Source: Halanaerobiaceae bacterium (GTDB taxonomy: Bacteria; Bacillota; Halanaerobiia; Halanaerobiales; Halarsenatibacteraceae). From it: a DNA stretch of 34,500 bases. Under the pieces are notes generated by a model that was not told the DNA's origin, searched no databases, and worked only from the letters and a program-made list of their open reading frames with translations. The DNA lies in contig PWEJ01000095.1 in NCBI GenBank assembly GCA_003553485.1, positions 1-34,500 of the forward strand, written 5' to 3'. The translations under genes and the position numbers were made by a program. Positions 2,789 through 13,291 of this stretch are shown here, one piece after another (positions within the stretch are counted from its first letter, which is position 1; every line of letters starts with the position of its first letter).

Positions 2789-3937
2789 TTAACTGATAAA
2801 ACCTGCTTCCTGCAATACCATTCGCGCTTCCTCTTCATCTTCAGGAGCAATCATCACCACTGGGCCAGCACAACCCATTCCTGTCTCGGCATAAATATCC
2901 TGCTGCCAGAGAGTTTCCTTGGCTGTTTCAATATCAAGGACATCTATTCCAGCAATTTCAGCATCAGTTTGTTTTTTATCTGGAGCAGTTACTTCTTCTT
3001 TAGCCGGACCGGCAGAAGATTTCAATTCTGTCAGCAAGTCCTGTAAACCAGCTTTTTTAGCCTGTTGCCATTCTCGCTGGTAAACCTCTAGCAAACCACC
3101 TTCAGCACTGGCGGCAAGATATTCTAAAGCTCCGGCCACCACCGGGGCCCCTGAAGCTCGAGAAATAATTCCAATTAACTTATCCTGTTCTTTCCCTACT
3201 CCCGGGCCGTAACCAAAGCCAGAGACCTCATAGTCTCCTCCGCTTTCCCGGGCTGAAAATAGTTTCATTAGAATATTGCCTGTCAAAGTATCGCAGACCA
3301 TCACATCACAGCTGCCCAGCAAAAGATCATTACCCCGCATAACACTGCCGCCATCACTGCGGGCAGATGTGGCAAATTTAAGGGGGTAGCCATTATCTTT
3401 TAATTTAGTTAAAAGCTGCTCGACTTTACGAGCTCCATCTACATTCAAAATTCCAACTTCCGGTTCTTCTATACCCAGGGCACGAGCAGCAGCTTGACCG
3501 GCAATAGCATTCTTGACCATTGCCTCTACCCTGGAAGTACCGCTTGTGCCAGTTGTAGTGGCTAATAACATTTCATCTCCTGTAGCTGGAGTTTTAACTC
3601 TACCAACGGTGGCAACTCCCATGGGGAAATTATAGTGAAGGGTAACAGCAGCATCTATTTTATCCTCGACAAAAAGATTTTCCATGATATCATGGGCCTC
3701 ATCGAGGCATTCACAGTAATGGTGCTGACAATCAGCCACTGGCTTTTCACCTATAATGACCAACTCGATATCTTTCTGTCTGGCCAGTAACTTTTCAGCC
3801 CCTTTGCGCAGTTCTGCTTCCCCATGTTCACTACCAGGAGTAGTCAGAGCCACCCTGGTTTGGCTGCCAAACTGGCCTGTTTCCAGTGCTTCAGCCACTT
3901 CTAACAAAGTCCTGGCAACTTCTTTTTTGGCCTTCAT
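2789..3937 (-). CDS. grdD: Glycine/sarcosine/betaine reductase component C, alpha subunit GrdD
   Basis: A 382-residue protein of the GrdD family, distantly related to phosphate acetyltransferase and PlsX folds. With GrdC it forms component C, which receives the acetyl group from the carboxymethylated selenoprotein A and releases acetyl phosphate, giving one ATP through acetate kinase. The conserved C-terminal motif TGMGCAGP is present (Cys356), matching the reactive cysteine reported near the C terminus in this family. Residues 70-77 carry three further cysteines (CQHHYCEC). An alanine/proline/lysine/glutamate-rich linker (about 310-325) precedes the C-terminal segment. The ATG follows an AGAGGTG site, 28 bases after the grdC stop, so the two are co-transcribed. 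A strong terminator follows. Confidence 0.93.
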   Translation of the reverse strand: MKAKKEVARTLLEVAEALETGQFGSQTRVALTTPGSEHGEAELRKGAEKLLARQKDIELVIIGEKPVADCQHHYCECLDEAHDIMENLFVEDKIDAAVTLHYNFPMGVATVGRVKTPATGDEMLLATTTGTSGTSRVEAMVKNAIAGQAAARALGIEEPEVGILNVDGARKVEQLLTKLKDNGYPLKFATSARSDGGSVMRGNDLLLGSCDVMVCDTLTGNILMKLFSARESGGDYEVSGFGYGPGVGKEQDKLIGIISRASGAPVVAGALEYLAASAEGGLLEVYQREWQQAKKAGLQDLLTELKSSAGPAKEEVTAPDKKQTDAEIAGIDVLDIETAKETLWQQDIYAETGMGCAGPVVMIAPEDEEEARMVLQEAGFIS

Positions 3938-3965: not shown

Positions 3966-5507
3966 TTATTCTTCCTCTGCCAGCATGTTCTCAGCCATAC
4001 CTCTCATGGCTTGAGCTATCATGCTTCTTATTTCATCGCGGTCAAAATCAGCCTGTTCTTCCTGCAGCTCACCGCTATTTTTCTCCAGGATAAAAGATAC
4101 TCCGTCAAACTGATTGGTCATCCGGGCCAGGAAAAGACTTCCTTTACCGATAATCATGGCCTTCTCCAATTTGCCTTCATCCATCATATCAGCAGCATGG
4201 CCTATGAAGGGCACTCCTGAAGGAATATGACCCTGAGTGGGGGCAAAGCCTGGCATACCATGTTCCTTAACAAAATCCATCAATTCAGATCTCTCTAGGT
4301 CGCCTCTTTTTACTCCCAGGGCAGCTATCATCTTATAATTAGATTCAGGCACATTTCCTGCACCGGCAGGCTCTGTTAACTCAGGATTTTGCATCTCTAC
4401 GGAATATTTATCGATATCCTGAATGCTCAATCCTGCTTTATCAAGAGAATCAGTAACAAGAGCAGAAATAACTGCCTGAGGAGAAGAACCTTTACCTACA
4501 GTATGTCTGCCAAGAATATCAGTCCGCATAATTGGGCTTTCTCCATCATCTTCAGTGACCAGCATGGCAAATCCGCCTAGAGTATCTTCTAAAATAGGCA
4601 TATCCTTTTTTACATAATCCTTGCCATTCATTCCCAGTTTAGCAACTGCTCCTCCAGCTACTACCAGCACATTATTGTAGATGCCTGATTTAACCAGCCC
4701 GCTGGCCTGGACTAAGGCATGGGTAGGAGCAGCACAGAAGGCTCTGGTATCACTGCCGGTGGCATTTTCACAGCCTGCCATTTCGGCGACAGCTTTAGCA
4801 AAGTTTCCTCCACCTCGCTGATTCATATCACCACAGGCTTCCTCAGAACATTCAATTACATAATCAACCTCTGTGAGATCTATTTCTGCATTGCGTTCTA
4901 AATTTTTGGCAGCCAGAACAGCGCTGGCCTTGGTCATCAAATTCTCCATGATAACATGGGGGCCTAAATTTTCGTCACTTTCATGGGCTCCTTTAACGCA
5001 ACCTACCAGCTCTTCCCCCAGATATAGGGGTTCAGCTCGATGTTCTTCCACTAATTTGCTGATTTTTTCCTGCTCGGTGGCCTCTAATTCCAGACCCATA
5101 TCTTTTAAGGAGGGATGATTATTGACCTTCTCCTCCACATCTTCAATAAAATCAGCCGTCAATTTAACCAGATCAAAAACATCGACATGCTGGAGGAGAG
5201 CAAAAAATTCATCTTCCGGCATAATCTCTCCTCGCTGGCCAAATCTTTTGTTTTCCAGCAGGTTTTCCTCAGCATACCAGGGTCGCTCTATTTCTTCCAA
5301 TTCCTCCGGAGAAATATTGCCAATATAGCACTGATTAGGAGCATAGGCTACACATTCCTCGAAGGGACGGATATGATCATCTAATTTCTCTAAATATTCG
5401 CTTTCTGGATCTTTCTTGCGAGCTTCAATCTGAGTGGTACCGCCAACCTTCATACTATTAGGGGCATGTACCAAAATATAGTTTGAACCTTTAACTACAG
5501 CTTCCAT
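3966..5507 (-). CDS. grdC: Glycine/sarcosine/betaine reductase component C, beta subunit GrdC
   Basis: The 513-residue protein matches GrdC in length and character. This subunit has a beta-ketoacyl-ACP synthase III (FabH/thiolase) fold and carries the acetyl thioester between selenoprotein A and GrdD. The family-typical N terminus is visible (SNYILVHAPNSM, then VAYAPNQCYIGN). The central thiolase-like segment contains GCENATGSDTRAFCAAPTHA around residues 246-265. A glycine-rich stretch (VVAGGAVAKLGMNGKDYV) follows. The ATG at 5507 has a good AGGAGG site. It lies 80 bases downstream of trxA with a small hairpin in the gap. Together with GrdD it forms the part of the reductase that is common to all Grd substrates. 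Confidence 0.94.
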   Translation of the reverse strand: MEAVVKGSNYILVHAPNSMKVGGTTQIEARKKDPESEYLEKLDDHIRPFEECVAYAPNQCYIGNISPEELEEIERPWYAEENLLENKRFGQRGEIMPEDEFFALLQHVDVFDLVKLTADFIEDVEEKVNNHPSLKDMGLELEATEQEKISKLVEEHRAEPLYLGEELVGCVKGAHESDENLGPHVIMENLMTKASAVLAAKNLERNAEIDLTEVDYVIECSEEACGDMNQRGGGNFAKAVAEMAGCENATGSDTRAFCAAPTHALVQASGLVKSGIYNNVLVVAGGAVAKLGMNGKDYVKKDMPILEDTLGGFAMLVTEDDGESPIMRTDILGRHTVGKGSSPQAVISALVTDSLDKAGLSIQDIDKYSVEMQNPELTEPAGAGNVPESNYKMIAALGVKRGDLERSELMDFVKEHGMPGFAPTQGHIPSGVPFIGHAADMMDEGKLEKAMIIGKGSLFLARMTNQFDGVSFILEKNSGELQEEQADFDRDEIRSMIAQAMRGMAENMLAEEE

Positions 5508-5587: not shown

Positions 5588-5905
5588 TTAAACGTAATTT
5601 GCTACTGCTTCATCTACTTCACTGGCTTCTAAATCTTCTCCACTGAGATGTTCTTGCTTTTCACCATCCTGATAGATAACAATAGAAGGCAGTCCCATAA
5701 CCTGCTGGCTCATGGCCAGTCTTCTATTTCCCTTGATATTCAGTTTGGCAAATTTAGCCTGACCTTCGTATTTTTCAGCTAAATTCTCTATCTCGGGCAT
5801 TAATTCCAAACAGGGGTCGCAGCTCTCACTCCAAAAATCTACTACCACAATACCTTCACTTTCCAATACTTCCTCTTCAAAGTTATCTTTGTTCAGTTCT
5901 AACAT
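5588..5905 (-). CDS. trxA: Thioredoxin associated with the Grd complex
   Basis: A 105-residue thioredoxin. The active site is C-D-P-C (FWSESCDPC, Cys29 and Cys32 from the ATG at 5905) instead of the usual CGPC. The cis-proline region LPSIVIYQDGE is intact, so the fold and redox activity should be preserved. It would pass electrons from TrxB to selenoprotein A after each catalytic cycle. I choose the ATG at 5905 because the GAGGAG site lies 10 bases upstream of it; an in-frame GTG at 5914 sits too close to that site. It lies between trxB and grdC on the same strand, the standard context of Grd-dedicated thioredoxins. Confidence 0.92.
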   Translation of the reverse strand: MLELNKDNFEEEVLESEGIVVVDFWSESCDPCLELMPEIENLAEKYEGQAKFAKLNIKGNRRLAMSQQVMGLPSIVIYQDGEKQEHLSGEDLEASEVDEAVANYV

Positions 5906-6037
5906 TTTATTCACTCTCCTCTTTTTGATTTAGTATAAGTCTAGTCTTTTAATTTATTTAAGTCTTAAGCAATTTACATTCAGTAAAATTGTCCTTATTT
6001 AGCTTTAAACAATTTATTTTAAGCTTATATTTTTAAC

Positions 6038-7252
6038 TTATGATAAGACTTCCTCTAAATCTTCAGCAGCAGGTTTCGTCAATCTCTCCACAACTTCACC
6101 CTCTTCAATCAAAAGTATCGTGGGAATCTCTGTCACCTTATATCTTTCCGTGATAAGAGTGTTGCGATAGGTGTCTATTTTAACCAGTTTCTTATTATCA
6201 TCTTCTTCTACCCCTAACTTTTCAATGGTCTGTAAAGTGTCAAGACTATCATTGTCAGTGGGGTTCCAGAAGGCAACTACAACCTGCTTGTCAGTCTTTA
6301 AAACATTTTCCCGCCAGTGTTCTTCAGCTTCAAGATAGCTTTGAGACATCACTGCAGCAGTTGCTCCATCGCCAGCAGCTGTAACCACCTGCCGCACCGG
6401 TTTATCTCTAACATCTCCGGCAGCATAGACTCCCTGTACACTTGTCTGCATCTCATCGTTGGTGATGATGTAACCCTGCTCATTTAAGTCAACTTCAGTA
6501 TCTTCTAAGAAGTCGGTGCTGGGGACTCGACCAACGAAGATGAATATTCCATCGCAGTCAAACTCAGTGAGTTCACCGGTTTTGACATTTTTCAAAACAG
6601 CTGTATCAACTATGCCCTCTCCCTTAACCTCTTCCAGGGTAGAGTTCCAGACGAATTCTATCTTATCATTGGCATAAGCTCTTTCCTGGAATAATTTTTC
6701 AGCATCCATCTTACCCTCTTCATGAATAACAATTATTGTAACTTTGCGAGCAAATTTCGTTAGATAAATAGCCTCTTCGATAGCTGAGTTGCCATTCCCA
6801 ACTACCACTACATCCAGGTCAACATAAAAGTCAGCATCACAGGTGGCGCAGTAAGAAACCCCCTTACCTCTAAATTCATCTTCTCCCTTTGCCCCCAATT
6901 TTCTAGGTTCAGCGCCAGTAGCTATTACTATGCTTTTAGCCTGATACTCTTCACCTTTTTCTGTCCTGACTTTCTTGATAAATCCATCCAGTTCAAGCTC
7001 TGCTACCTCTCCCCGGGCAAATTCTGCCCCGAATTTCTTAGCATGCTCTTCAAAACTATCAACGAGCTCTGGAGCCGTTGTATCAACAACACCGGGATAA
7101 TTCTCCATCTCATGATAGTCAGCTACCTGTCCACCTAATTTGCGACTGGATTCCAGCACCAGAGTCTTTAACTTGGAGCGAGAACCGTAAATTGCGCAGG
7201 ATAATCCGGCTGGCCCTCCACCTATTATTAAAATATCATAAACCTCTGCCAT
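6038..7252 (-). CDS. trxB: Thioredoxin reductase with fused C-terminal thioredoxin-like domain
   Basis: A 404-residue flavoprotein about 90 residues longer than usual TrxB. Residues 1-310 form the reductase: FAD-binding GGGPAGLSCA (11-20), redox motif CATC (135-138), dinucleotide-binding VVGNGNSAIEEA and the C-terminal FAD segment GVYAAGDVRD. The HRRxxxR motif that holds the NADPH phosphate in E. coli-type enzymes is absent; the matching stretch is VIHEEGKMDAEKL, so the electron donor may not be NADPH. Residues about 322-404 form a thioredoxin fold (VVVAFWNPTDNDSL, cis-proline at EIPTILL), but the CxxC is replaced by D-N-D-S. It heads trxB-trxA-grdC-grdD and should reduce TrxA. The start has a good AAAGGAG site. 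Confidence 0.92.
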   Translation of the reverse strand: MAEVYDILIIGGGPAGLSCAIYGSRSKLKTLVLESSRKLGGQVADYHEMENYPGVVDTTAPELVDSFEEHAKKFGAEFARGEVAELELDGFIKKVRTEKGEEYQAKSIVIATGAEPRKLGAKGEDEFRGKGVSYCATCDADFYVDLDVVVVGNGNSAIEEAIYLTKFARKVTIIVIHEEGKMDAEKLFQERAYANDKIEFVWNSTLEEVKGEGIVDTAVLKNVKTGELTEFDCDGIFIFVGRVPSTDFLEDTEVDLNEQGYIITNDEMQTSVQGVYAAGDVRDKPVRQVVTAAGDGATAAVMSQSYLEAEEHWRENVLKTDKQVVVAFWNPTDNDSLDTLQTIEKLGVEEDDNKKLVKIDTYRNTLITERYKVTEIPTILLIEEGEVVERLTKPAAEDLEEVLS

Positions 7253-8333: not shown

Positions 8334-9869
8334 TTATTTGCCTACCGCACTTTCCAAAACCTCTTTATCGATATCTGGAAGTTTCTCCTCATCAGCTTCT
8401 ACTTCTGCCCTTAGAGTTTTCACCATGGATCCCATTGCCAGTAACATAACTATGGCAAAGGGGAAGGCAGCTACAATTGAACCTGTCTGCAGCATCTCCA
8501 AGCCCCCTGACAGCATCAGAGCAATTGCCAGGCCAGTTTGAATAAATCCCCAGGTTATCTTGCGTTTAGTAGAAGGATTTATATTTCCTCTATCAGACAT
8601 CATCCCCAGCACAAAAGTAGCTGAATCGGCTGAGGTGATAAAGAAGGTCGTTAACAGGATTACAGCGATTATGGAAATCAACTGCCCAATGGGATACTCC
8701 TGCATTACCACAAAAAAGGCTGTCTCTGTTACTGCAATAGCCTCTTCTGCAACACCTTCGCCTAAGTTTATACCCATGGTACCCATAATGGAAAACCAGA
8801 CAAAGGAGGCTAGGGTGGGAGCAAATAAAACTCCCCCTACAAATTCTCTAATAGTTCTGCCCCGAGAGATTCTGGCAATAAAAGTCGCCACAAAGGGAGC
8901 CCAGGCAATCCACCAGGCCCAGTAGAAAAGTGTCCAGGCCCCATACCAGGGGTCATCCCCTATTCTAAAACTATTACTTACCAGTGAACTCATATATCCT
9001 CCAAAGGCATTGGTGAAGTTATTGATTATCATCACAGTGGGGCCAACAATCAGACATAAGACCATGATTATGGTAGCTAAAGATATATTAGCATTTGAAA
9101 GGTATTTAATTCCTTTATCAACCCCGGTTATGGCTGAAATCATAAATAAAACAGTTATAATGCCGATAATTATTAGTCGCACTGTGTCGGTCTCCGGAGT
9201 TCCAAAAAGAAAGTTAAAACCGCTGGTAAGTTGCATGGTAGCTAAACCTAAGGAGGTTGCTACTCCAGCCACTGTGGCAAAAATAGCCAGTATATCGATA
9301 GCCTTGCCAATAGGACCCCTGGCTCTCTCTTCACCTAATAGTGGAATGAAAATACTGCTTATCTGACCGGGTTTATCATGGCGAAACTGCATGTAGGCTA
9401 AAGCTAAAGCCAGTACCGCATAATTGGCCCAGGGATGAAGCCCCCAGTGAAAGAATGAAGTTTCTAAGGCAAAACCTGCTGCCGCTTCTGTACCACCTTC
9501 CATGGCCAGAGGAGCAACATAGTGGTTTAAAGGTTCGGCTACTCCCCAGAAAACAAGCCCCACTCCCATACCGGCGCTAAAGAGCATAGCAAACCAGGAT
9601 AAAGTGCTAAACTCCGGCTCTTCCTCTGGTTTTCCCAGTTTAATTTTACCATGTTTGCCAAAAGCAGCCCAGAGACAAAATACAATAAATAGGGTCATGG
9701 TAATTAAGTAAAACCAGCCAAAGTTAGTCGTCAAAAAATCGAAGAGTCCATTGGCCACTGTGCTGAAAGAGTCAGGCATAGCTATTCCCCAGACCACAAT
9801 AGCAAAGACAATAATCAGGGAGATTATAAAGACTTCCTGACCTCTTTTATGTTTTGTTTTTTTCTTCAT
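8334..9869 (-). CDS. BCCT family betaine/carnitine/choline transporter
   Basis: A 511-residue membrane protein with twelve predicted helices, typical of the BCCT family. The glycine-rich sodium-site segment SAGMGVGLVFWGVAEPLNHY (about 94-113) is intact, as is the tryptophan-rich betaine-binding helix (FYWAWWIAWAPFVATFIAR), followed by the conserved basic loop ISRGRTIREF. The HWGLHPWANYAV motif also fits. Such carriers import glycine betaine, usually with Na+, as osmoprotectant or growth substrate. It lies directly downstream of grdH, so it most likely supplies betaine to the reductase. The ATG has an AGGAGGGG site. A long hairpin at 9968-10007 lies between it and grdH. The helical tail is short and acidic. 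Confidence 0.93.
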   Translation of the reverse strand: MKKKTKHKRGQEVFIISLIIVFAIVVWGIAMPDSFSTVANGLFDFLTTNFGWFYLITMTLFIVFCLWAAFGKHGKIKLGKPEEEPEFSTLSWFAMLFSAGMGVGLVFWGVAEPLNHYVAPLAMEGGTEAAAGFALETSFFHWGLHPWANYAVLALALAYMQFRHDKPGQISSIFIPLLGEERARGPIGKAIDILAIFATVAGVATSLGLATMQLTSGFNFLFGTPETDTVRLIIIGIITVLFMISAITGVDKGIKYLSNANISLATIIMVLCLIVGPTVMIINNFTNAFGGYMSSLVSNSFRIGDDPWYGAWTLFYWAWWIAWAPFVATFIARISRGRTIREFVGGVLFAPTLASFVWFSIMGTMGINLGEGVAEEAIAVTETAFFVVMQEYPIGQLISIIAVILLTTFFITSADSATFVLGMMSDRGNINPSTKRKITWGFIQTGLAIALMLSGGLEMLQTGSIVAAFPFAIVMLLAMGSMVKTLRAEVEADEEKLPDIDKEVLESAVGK

Positions 9870-10013: not shown

Positions 10014-11333
10014 TTAACCGACTTTAAATACAGTTTGATCTTCAATATCAGTCTCTAAAGCATCTAAAGCAGCTCCAACTCTTGTATAACGGACTTTCCA
10101 TTGTTCATCTTCAGGAGTCTTTGGATCTCCCAGAGGATAAGGAATAGAAATCGTTGGAACTATTCTATTTGCTCCTGTAGTTTTGGCTACCGGTACCAGA
10201 TTTGCCATTTGCACAATAGTAATGCCAGCTCTCTCAATTTCTTTAGCCATCGTTGCACCGCAACGAGTACAGGTTCCTCAGGTAGAGGTCAATATGACGG
10301 CTTGCACACCAGCATCTTTAAGATCTTCAGCTATTTCCTGACCCATTCTAGCTGCTTCACCTACAGTAGTACCGGTTCCCACCGTTACATAAAATTCATC
10401 ATGTAGCTTTCCAATGCGTCCCTCTTCTTCAAATTTTCTCAGGGCATCTACTGGTACAACCCTATTAGGGTCTTCATCAGCAGCAGCTGGATCAAAACCA
10501 GCATGTATAGTTTTAAAACCTTCACTGGCTCTATTTTCCAGCCTATCCATACCAGCTATATTATATTTGCCCCACCGGGTAGCTGAAGCAGACTGAATTC
10601 TATCAGGATTACCTACAGGCACAATGCCACCAGAAGAAACTAGAGCTACTTTCACCTGGCTTAAATCTTCTATTGCCGGAGCAATATCTACTCTATCTAC
10701 TTCTGGTATAGGAAGTTCACTGGTATACTCTTCCCCCTTCATCTTTTTCAACAGCATATCCAAAGCTCTTTCGGCAGCTGTCTTTTCATCAGGGCGGAAG
10801 TACTGATGGCGTATTCCTCTTTTATAAAAGCCATATTCATCAGCCGGGAAGGGCCCTTCTGATGTCAATATTTCATTACCAAACTCAGCCATTTTTTTGG
10901 CATCTTCTCTCATTTTAGCCCCGCTTCTTCCACCGGGGAAGATATAGATATCTTTCTTGAACATCTCCCCTCCAGGGTTTTCTTCGTTCATGGAGGAGAT
11001 TACAGGCACTGCAAACTCTTCTTTGACAGCCTTACCTATTGCACCACAGGCATTGCCATATCTCCCGGCCTGAAAAGCAGGACCGGCAAAGAAAATATCA
11101 AAATCGATATCTTCCAGCATTTCTAAAATTCTAGCAGTAGCTTCCTCTTGATTGGAAGACATGAAATTATCTCCACATATTACTGTATGAGTTATATCTC
11201 CAGCAAATTCAGCTGCTAATGCCTGAGCAGCTCCTACAGCACCTTCTTTGATTTCCGGGGGATGGTCAGCAGCTTCTTCTCCCCCAACCTGTCCGAAAAA
11301 TTGATTTATATAGACAATTGCTTTTTTATCCAC
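10014..11333 (-). CDS. grdH: Betaine reductase component B selenoprotein GrdH (UGA read as Sec)
   Basis: A 439-residue selenoprotein encoded across an in-frame TGA at 10278-10280 (Sec352). The frame is open on both sides and the joined protein matches the GrdB/GrdF/GrdH family in length and Sec position. The motif at the UGA is ILTSTU-GTCTRCGATM, typical of component B. The N terminus YINQFFGQVGGEEAADHPPE is also diagnostic. GrdH pairs with the pyruvoyl subunit encoded just upstream and attacks the substrate adduct to hand a carboxymethyl group to GrdA. I choose GTG at 11333 (AGGAGG, 8 bases spacing); a GTG at 11342 overlaps that site. Betaine specificity, rather than glycine or sarcosine, is inferred from the BCCT neighbour. 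Confidence 0.9.
10250..10266 (-). promoter_or_regulatory. SECIS-like hairpin after the grdH UGA
   Basis: On the minus strand, 11 bases after the UGA codon, TCGTTGC and GCAACGA form a perfect 7-bp stem closed by the loop GGU. Bacterial SECIS elements are small hairpins at about this distance with a G-U in the loop that binds SelB. It lies within the coding sequence of grdH. Confidence 0.75.
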
Positions 11334-11355
11334 AATCTTCACCTCCTCAGGTTTA

Positions 11356-12681
11356 TTAAAATTCCTTCATAGTTTTTGTCGACCAGCCAGTTACTCCATC
11401 ACCACAGAACATAGCATTGTTCTCCATAATAATAGAGCCGTCTTCCCTAACTGAGGGGCCTAATTCTTCATCATCTTCCCAGCCTCCAGAAAGTCCATCT
11501 CGAGCCAGGGCTTCTAATTCACCAATAACGGTTTCCATTGGTGGAAGCTCTATTAGTTCTGATACATTTCCTGTAGAAACCAGAGCATCTGCCTTGGGAT
11601 CCATAGCTACCAGCGGTTGAGAAGTACCATCGCGACCTGTTGCTTCGTTACTAACTCCCACTGTATCAATACCAGCTTCCTCCAGAGCTACTAAACAGGC
11701 TGTATAATCAGCATCGGGATTTCCATAACCTTCTTCAGCAACAATTGCTCCTTCTGCTCCTAAAGTTGAAGCAATCTGAGCTACAAATTGAGCACTGCGT
11801 TCTTTTTCTTCCAGAGATACATTGAGGTTTGACATTATTACCCCGAGAAAATTAAGGGTCTCTCCATGTTCTTCGTACAGCTTTCTAATTAAGGGAAAGT
11901 TTTGGAAGTCATAGGTTGACCACTTTGAAGAGCAGGGCATGAAGCTACCAGAAATCATCGCTCCATCTAATACCTCATTGGGATGCATTAGAGTAGGGAG
12001 CATATGATTGGTGTCCCAGCCATAACTCAAATCATTATAACCATCTTCCTCCATCTGAGACTGCGGTTGTAGTACCAACACTACCCCGGGAAGATCTTCT
12101 AATTCACAAATTCTATCTGCAATAGGAGGTAATTCTAATTCCTGAACTTCTTCTGGCTCGAGGTCCTTTACTGCTCGACCTAGATATTCAGATAGCCTCA
12201 TACCAGCCCAGCGCAAAGCTCTATTCTTTTTCTGCTGTTCCCGTTTTTCAAATTCTTCATCGGTGTCAGCTACCAAAACTACATTTTTTAACCTGGAAAA
12301 ATAAGTGTACTTTGCACCTTCTCCTGCCATATCTATAAGACCGTCCTGAAAACCACCCCAGTGCTTACCGACAACTAAAACACTCATATCCTTTAAAGCC
12401 TTAGTCTGACCCTCTCCGGCCTGCATTAATTCTCCCGTTACTCCGGGAAAAACAGGGCCTCCACCTTCACGGTAACGAGGCTCTATTGCTTCTTTTACAG
12501 GAACTAGCCGAACTTCATCCCCAGGCTCAACTATCTTCAGGTCGGCGTCAATAATATGATCATCTTCATAAACAACACTTAGTGCTTCTTCTTTATTTAT
12601 AGTTAATGTGCCGTCCTGGTAAGCAGTCTGCTCACCGAATTCAATTTCCTTAACTGGAAAATTTCCAAGTTCTAATTTCAT
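11356..12681 (-). CDS. grdI: Betaine reductase component B proprotein GrdI (pyruvoyl alpha/beta subunits)
   Basis: A 441-residue protein of the GrdE/GrdG/GrdI family. These proproteins are cleaved before a cysteine that becomes a pyruvoyl group, giving two chains that bind the amine substrate. The best candidate is Cys250 in SGSFMPCSSKW: it leaves 191 residues after it, very close to the known cleavage point in the 428-residue GrdE. Conserved downstream segments include EEGYGNPDADY, GRDGTSQPLV and ALARDGLSGGW. The start is the ATG at 12681 behind AAGGGGTGG; an upstream in-frame TTG at 12729 has no such site. It lies between grdA and grdH. The assignment to GrdI rather than GrdE or GrdG rests on the neighbouring BCCT transporter. 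Confidence 0.85.
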   Translation of the reverse strand: MKLELGNFPVKEIEFGEQTAYQDGTLTINKEEALSVVYEDDHIIDADLKIVEPGDEVRLVPVKEAIEPRYREGGGPVFPGVTGELMQAGEGQTKALKDMSVLVVGKHWGGFQDGLIDMAGEGAKYTYFSRLKNVVLVADTDEEFEKREQQKKNRALRWAGMRLSEYLGRAVKDLEPEEVQELELPPIADRICELEDLPGVVLVLQPQSQMEEDGYNDLSYGWDTNHMLPTLMHPNEVLDGAMISGSFMPCSSKWSTYDFQNFPLIRKLYEEHGETLNFLGVIMSNLNVSLEEKERSAQFVAQIASTLGAEGAIVAEEGYGNPDADYTACLVALEEAGIDTVGVSNEATGRDGTSQPLVAMDPKADALVSTGNVSELIELPPMETVIGELEALARDGLSGGWEDDEELGPSVREDGSIIMENNAMFCGDGVTGWSTKTMKEF

Positions 12682-12776
12682 TTTTCCCACCCCTTTCTGG
12701 CATTTTTGTGATAATATTTTCACTTGCAAGACATTTATCTGCCAGCTTTGTTATATTATGCACATATCCTTTCTTT

Positions 12777-12820: not shown

Positions 12821-13291
12821 TTACAGTTTATACTTACTATATTTTTCTCGATAAGTTTTTACTTCTTCTATAATATCATCAACATCAAGTACCATTTCCA
12901 TCATACTTATCTGCTCTTCATAAACATCTTCGTCAATTGCTTCTTTGATTTCTGATTCTAAAACATGATAACAGGCGAGTCCTAACTGGACTCCTGCCAG
13001 TGGACCTGCAAAGGTTGGGTCACCATTTGTGACGGTTTCAACGGCAAGCCCTGAAGCCTCTGCTTCAGCACCTCCCAGAACTACCAGCATGTTCTCTGGC
13101 CCGTGTTCTTCAGCCAGATCTTTTACACGCTGCTGGTTCTCCAGGTCCATGGCACCAGCACTGGTTCAGACGAAACACTCAGTGGTGGTAAAGACTATTT
13201 CTGCTTCAGTAGTTTTTAAAGCCTCTTCTATAGCTGGTCCAGGAATTCCATCCCTATCACCTAGAATAGCTACTTTTTTGCCCTCAAGCAT
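12821..13291 (-). CDS. grdA: Glycine/sarcosine/betaine reductase selenoprotein A GrdA (UGA read as Sec)
   Basis: A 156-residue selenoprotein with an in-frame TGA at 13166-13168 (Sec42). The redox motif is Cys39-Phe-Val-Sec42 in [16 protein letters not shown], which is the signature of GrdA. The selenol is carboxymethylated by component B, and the selenoether is then cleaved by component C; TrxA and TrxB restore the reduced form. The N terminus [20 protein letters not shown] is typical. The ATG at 13291 has a strong GGAGGGAGGGGG site. It is the first gene of the locus, directly behind a strong promoter. Reading the TGA as a stop leaves only the 109-residue tail as an apparent gene starting at an internal Met. 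Confidence 0.96.
13132..13159 (-). promoter_or_regulatory. SECIS-like hairpin after the grdA UGA
   Basis: On the minus strand, 6 bases after the UGA, GCTGGT (13154-13159) pairs with ACCAGC (13132-13137) around a 16-base apical region that can pair further. This is where a bacterial SECIS should be, within the coding sequence. The structure is less perfect than the one in grdH. Confidence 0.55.

Follow-up and report, generated by a model that had tools for sequence, protein, structure and literature searches.

A conserved, cysteine-less thioredoxin-fold tail on the thioredoxin reductase of glycine/betaine reductase operons

Results

The window, by which we mean the whole stretch of 34,500 nucleotides analysed here, comes from a halophilic anaerobe and carries a betaine-type reductase cluster encoded on the minus strand. 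Selenoprotein A, GrdA, is encoded at 12821..13288 (PF04723, E 3.7e-77; NF040748, 272.6 bits), the component B alpha subunit (GrdG/GrdI-like) at 11356..12729, and a GrdH-like, betaine-type selenoprotein B at 10014..11342 (TIGR01918, 642 bits; NF040795, 762 bits against a cut-off of 775). In both the GrdH-like subunit and GrdA an in-frame TGA is read as selenocysteine. Between the two halves of the cluster, at 8334..9869, lies a glycine-betaine transporter gene, assigned from its sequence and from its recurrence as a neighbour, whose product we take to be of the BCCT family. The remaining genes are trxB (6038..7252 including the stop codon), trxA (5588..5914; NF047697, 153.3 bits), which encodes a separate, redox-active thioredoxin with the active site S-C-D-P-C, grdC for the component C beta subunit (3966..5507; NF040746, 790 bits) and grdD for component C alpha (2789..3937; NF040747, 553 bits).

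The trxB product, of 404 aa, consists of a thioredoxin reductase followed by a C-terminal, redox-dead thioredoxin domain. Its core matches TIGR01292, the family of low-molecular-weight thioredoxin reductases, with 361.7 bits against a cut-off of 343.45, and none of the 102 clade-assigned fused homologues has lost the reductase redox disulphide C-A-T-C (residues 135-138, 6839..6850, minus strand). An AlphaFold2 model of the full-length protein, built from a 20-sequence alignment, reached a pLDDT of 90.2 and a pTM of 0.81; when it was compared with solved structures, bacterial thioredoxin reductases (TrxRs) aligned over residues 1-313, and only TrxR chains were among the matches listed. The genome encodes two more TrxB-like enzymes, both without a tail. 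None of the curated families searched with TrxB sets the fused grd-type protein apart from ordinary TrxB.

The tail has a genuine thioredoxin fold minus its first strand (residues 309-404, 6041..6328, minus strand), as assigned from Pfam, AlphaFold2 models and Foldseek. Residues 309-401 match PF00085 with an E-value of 1.9e-8 in the context of the whole protein (34.7 bits, cut-off 23.5) and of 1.2e-9 when the tail is searched alone; the tail is 30% identical to the window's own TrxA (E 8e-6), and phmmer relates it to solved thioredoxins at E ~1e-11. Folded alone, it gives a pLDDT of 86.5 and superposes on thioredoxins with a TM-score of 0.85-0.88 at 1.6-2.0 Å over ~94 columns, and in the full model its helices and strands follow the thioredoxin order, strand 1 being absent. 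The original prediction of a thioredoxin-like fold joined to the reductase, for which it had proposed structure prediction of the full protein, is thus borne out. Its placement of the domain in the last ~83 residues (6038-6290) was right as to location and too short, missing the first helix; the domain begins at about residue 309.

The pseudo-active site F-W-N-P-T-D-N-D-S (residues 328-336, 6245..6271, minus strand) stands in place of F-W-A-P-W-C-G-P-C, as seen in the sequence and alignment. In terms of E. coli thioredoxin, Trp31-Cys32-Gly33-Pro34-Cys35 is replaced by T-D-N-D-S (residues 332-336), the buried Asp26 by Ala327 and Asp61 by Tyr362, and Trp28 is retained as Trp329. The substitution of D-N-D-S (6245-6256) for CxxC and the preservation of both the FWNP start (6260-6271) and the cis-proline, all claimed at the outset, hold: no cysteine occurs anywhere in the tail of the window TrxB, and Pro377 (6122..6124, minus strand) occupies the position of the E. 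coli cis-proline Pro76 and is kept in 101 of 104 fused homologues. Adjoining the pseudo-active site is a family signature, D-T-Y-R-N (residues 360-364, 6161..6175, minus strand), identified by its conservation in grd-linked sequences. The tail is unable to carry out dithiol chemistry or to transfer electrons.

Reductase and tail meet in one continuous helix (residues 289-318, 6299..6388, minus strand; DSSP on the model, pLDDT above 90), in which the last reductase helix passes unbroken into thioredoxin helix 1 with no linker. Because the two are joined in this way, the tail appears in the model to be rigidly attached, and the continuous helix disfavours a flexible, tethered arm.

The nucleotide site is also altered. 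In the alignment, the window TrxB has H-E-E-G-K-M-D (residues 177-183, 6704..6724, minus strand) where the NADPH 2'-phosphate motif HRRxxxR would stand, and GxGxxA is present as GNGNSA. The fused proteins retain GxGxxA, and in 103 of 104 HRRxxxR has given way to an acidic H[DE]xGx[LMV]D; one fused protein keeps HRR. Among unfused relatives the site reads HRRxxxR, except for a few lineages with other letters; none of them has the acidic motif. Rossmann enzymes that prefer NADH typically carry acidic residues at the 2'-phosphate position. Since such residues here take the place of the 2'-phosphate arginines while GxGxxA stays, the sequence suggests that the fused TrxBs use NADH. NADPH-dependent TrxRs (NTRs) are defined by the joint presence of GxGxxA and HRRxxxR (PMC10880999), the second of which is replaced in the window TrxB.

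To follow these features through the family, 104 distinct fused homologues were aligned, a set chosen for length, so that loss of the tail could escape notice. The nucleophilic cysteine (position 333) is present in 0 of the 104; the position of the second cysteine (336) holds Cys in 14 and Ser in 80, and no acid was found at the Asp26 position anywhere in this alignment. A Cys-less tail common to 104 distinct sequences, under the selection described below, rules out a local sequencing error or frameshift, a doubt raised with the original prediction. The sole CxxC match, a CRDC in a Spirochaetales tail (L028), lies one helical turn past the usual active-site position and was rejected as an intact active site. 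Asp360 is retained in 102 of 104 fused homologues, and across 77 grd-linked sequences the signature is conserved at 100% for D, 95% for Y, 97% for R/K and 96% for N. In those same 77 sequences F328, W329, E344, K358, D360, Y362, N364, R370, Y371, P377 and G385 are 91-100% conserved. The conserved residues of the tail gather at the pseudo-active-site pole, among them Tyr362, which takes the place of thioredoxin Asp61.

In close pairs the dN of the tail is well under its dS, with dN/dS mostly ~0.05-0.3, and by this measure the tail is under purifying selection. Its evolution is faster than that of the core (mean entropy 1.98 versus 1.12), and no frameshifted or decayed tail was found among the 104 length-selected, full-length fused proteins. 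The nucleophilic cysteine and the buried acid have been lost and yet dN remains well under dS, which argues that the tail is kept for a non-redox role. Of 299 genomes drawn evenly from the window's phylum, at least 79 encode a full-length fused protein, and such proteins occur also in relatives from the window's class. Elsewhere, 198 genomes from the phylum to which a Spirochaetales MAG (L034) belongs gave 4 fused places among many unfused ones, and 13 from that of a Cloacimonadota MAG (L012) gave 1 fused place. That dozens of anaerobic Bacillota families have retained the fusion makes it probable that the dead domain serves some purpose beyond electron carrying. Some unfused TrxBs from the L034 phylum (L239, L243-L248, L250-L252, L254, L255 and L257) form a group with VRKDxVRCA in place of HRRDxxRA.

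Fused loci 7 kb or longer numbered 88, and 62 of them had genes of the grd system in the stretch; this locus set is biased, having been found with a grd-linked query. Approached in reverse, from the grd side, GrdA was present in 90 of 299 genomes, and the collected grd stretches held 76 distinct fused TrxBs and 14 unfused ones (16 listed, minus 2 contig-cut fragments), so that the survey proposed with the original prediction found the tail to be recurrent; 31 grd stretches had no TrxB at the threshold used. Some genomes (L097, L098, L118 and L119) have several betaine reductase clusters, each with its own fused TrxB, and this set includes two clusters in tandem within one stretch.

TrxA adjoins TrxB in most fused grd operons, and its active site differs with the reductase: of the 65 grd operons with a fused, acidic-motif TrxB, 61 have a C[ED]xC TrxA, versus 1 of the 9 with an unfused HRR enzyme, the TrxA of unfused-TrxB grd operons being mostly C[AVI]PC. 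Three loci part these characters, L161 combining a tail with HRR and a CAPC TrxA, L203 having a CENC TrxA with neither tail nor HRR, and L199 having HRR and a CEPC TrxA with no tail. The first two suggest that the TrxA motif may follow the cofactor site of the reductase rather than the tail, and L199 speaks against this. Within the grd clade the reductase still has its own Trx-docking signature, GKG...CATCDADF, matching the GKG...CATC...F described for TrxR (PMC5627308), which argues that the separate TrxA is still its substrate. This pairing of TrxA, like the altered nucleotide site and the breadth of the family, had been missed by the original prediction, which was correct in its central proposal of a redox-dead, fused thioredoxin.

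Fused proteins are also found in other settings. In a second fused clade (15 sequences) a thioredoxin-like gene mostly adjoins trxB. A third (10 sequences) has neither grd nor TrxA beside TrxB, and the members inspected (L014, L034, L114, L144 and L168) adjoin genes for TusA/YeeD-like sulfurtransferases and for the halves of a split, YedE/TsuA-like transporter, a context that suggests a part in the uptake of sulfur or selenium.

In a mixture-model tree computed from the reductase core, the fused proteins all fall into a single group (SH-aLRT 91, not starred, by a quick method), the nearest relative of which is L207, an unfused, grd-linked TrxB of the HRR type (joining branch 95, starred). An earlier FastTree run had split the fused group, setting the second fused clade and L161 apart; the repeated, independent fusion and nucleotide-site change which that split implied is not claimed here, as the mixture-model tree unites all fused proteins. 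The simplest reading of the tree would be one fusion in a grd operon with a linked change of the nucleotide site, and later spread and formation of paralogues. The tail, the nucleotide motif and the TrxA motif would then share essentially one origin, so correlations among them are not independent evidence.

Discussion

What does a thioredoxin fold that has lost its chemistry do on a catabolic reductase? The reading we prefer, plausible if still short of likely, is that the tail is a fixed docking or specificity module which would confine the reductase to its own TrxA. Electrons would pass from NADH to FAD, then to the CATC disulphide, the separate SCDPC TrxA and finally the selenoprotein GrdA, with no redox step taken by the tail. 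The old active-site pole of the tail (FW-S-P, D-x-Y-[KR]-N and the cis-proline) would instead bind another protein, for which the cognate C[ED]xC TrxA is the likeliest candidate and GrdA the second; docking would keep a high-flux catabolic path from NADH to betaine apart from the ordinary NADPH-TrxB-Trx system. The position of the conserved residues on the old active-site pole agrees with this idea, as do the pairing of fused, acidic-motif reductases with a C[ED]xC TrxA, usually encoded alongside, and the two further, tail-less TrxB-like enzymes of the genome. In a mirror-tree comparison the tail may track TrxA slightly more than the other subunits: with core distance removed, partial r was 0.20 for TrxA, 0.11 for GrdA, 0.11 for GrdC and -0.14 for GrdE-type subunits, a weak signal from a permutation that ignores relatedness. 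The reductase core tracks TrxA far more strongly (0.56, likewise uncorrected for relatedness). Against docking on TrxA stand the fused clade with TusA/YedE-like genes, which has no TrxA alongside, the faster evolution of the tail than of the core, and L161 and L199, which break the pairing of tail and TrxA motif.

The main rival, which we judge rather unlikely, holds that the tail has no outside partner and acts structurally within the enzyme: it would pack against the dimer or the moving nucleotide domain, and would set the switch between flavin-reducing and flavin-oxidising states, or stability. A rigid helix that, in the model, runs on from the FAD domain would suit such an element, as would the single origin that the tail shares with the changed nucleotide site and its retention in three operon settings with differing partners; the conserved residues, however, lie on the protein-binding pole of thioredoxin and are not spread over the fold, and the unfused sister enzymes found in these operons have no tail. 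It is improbable that the tail docks an electron donor, ferredoxin or an NADH-oxidising protein, for an enzyme no longer using NADPH. Gain of the tail and loss of HRRxxxR do fall on the same branch, and TrxRs linked to ferredoxin are known from Clostridia (PMC10880999, PMC12796991), but arginines turned acidic beside a preserved GxGxxA are the pattern expected for NADH and not for loss of the nucleotide, and L161 has a tail with an intact HRRxxxR site.

The original prediction had also offered the tail as a competitor that sits on the reductase's own Trx site and shields the redox centre. Trp28 and the cis-proline of the thioredoxin binding face are indeed retained; this variant has nonetheless become very unlikely, as Trp31 and Asp61 are replaced, the modelled rigid helix leaves no linker for swinging back, the reductase keeps its Trx-docking signature, and a shield would inhibit the TrxA encoded next door. 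Equally far-fetched is a functionless vestige of an old, active TrxR-Trx fusion, to which the faster evolution of the tail and the second cysteine kept in 14 of 104 might point, and against which stand purifying selection, the lack of decayed tails in the length-chosen set, and the 95-100% conservation of the signature residues within the grd clade.

The wider form of the docking reading is possible, and we advance it with reserve: a widespread class of catabolic TrxR in which a rigid pseudo-thioredoxin on an NADH-using reductase would serve as a partner-recognition domain, insulating the electron line of selenoprotein glycine/betaine reductase from the general NADPH thioredoxin system, with a C[ED]xC TrxA adapted to it. 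Many anaerobes carry a grd-linked TrxR with a pseudo-thioredoxin that curated families lump with ordinary TrxB. Should the tail prove to be a specificity module, one could understand how a single cell keeps a high-flux catabolic thioredoxin line running beside a low-flux housekeeping line, and nature would here offer an example of a pseudo-enzyme domain evolved from the enzyme's own substrate. If the NADH reading is right, Stickland-type reduction of glycine and betaine would draw directly on catabolic NADH and not on NADPH.

Comparison with known systems

Fusions of TrxR and thioredoxin are known from the NTRC of plants and cyanobacteria and from Mycobacterium leprae TrxB/A, and redox-dead thioredoxin folds from AhpF and PDI-type domains; proteins of the AhpF type combine a TrxR-like core with thioredoxin folds of which one lacks CxxC. 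AhpF and AhpF-like proteins (TIGR03140, TIGR03143) carry a tandem pair of folds that includes an active one, whereas the window TrxB has a single, dead fold and scores far under the cut-offs of both families, reaching for TIGR03143 359.5 bits against 687.65 over 555 positions, with only positions 1-310 aligned. NTRC (PMC4988983, PMC3792407) and the M. leprae protein share with the window TrxB the order of a low-molecular-weight TrxR and a C-terminal thioredoxin domain in one chain. Their thioredoxin domain is redox-active (CGPC), whereas the window tail has neither cysteine, nor the buried acid, nor strand 1, is joined through a continuous helix, and has a separate, active TrxA encoded alongside.

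A search of mainly open-access literature returned no description of a Cys-less thioredoxin tail on TrxB, and a "chimeric" fused TrxA/TrxB is named in a figure legend only (PMC10880999). TrxR-Trx fusions themselves being known, it is the conserved, rigid, Cys-less tail on grd-type TrxB that we have not found described in the searchable literature. The grd-linked, NADPH-dependent TrxB/TrxA of Clostridium sticklandii and C. difficile (TrxB3/TrxA3) share the operon setting and the reductase core of the window proteins. C. difficile TrxA3 has GCEPC, and TrxB3 is reported with GxGxxA and HRRxxxR (PMC10880999); the window TrxB differs from TrxB3 in lacking HRRxxxR and in possessing the tail. Loss of the 2'-phosphate motif is shared with the TrxRs that do not use NADPH, namely FFTR, DvTRi and the NADH-linked DvTR3. 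FFTR, in which both nucleotide motifs are absent, and TRi, defined by TQ/NGK at the 2'-phosphate site and a degenerate GxGxxA (GEGxxAxN and TQGK; PMC5627308), have in addition lost GxGxxA, whereas the window type keeps GxGxxA intact together with its acidic H[DE]xGxxD.
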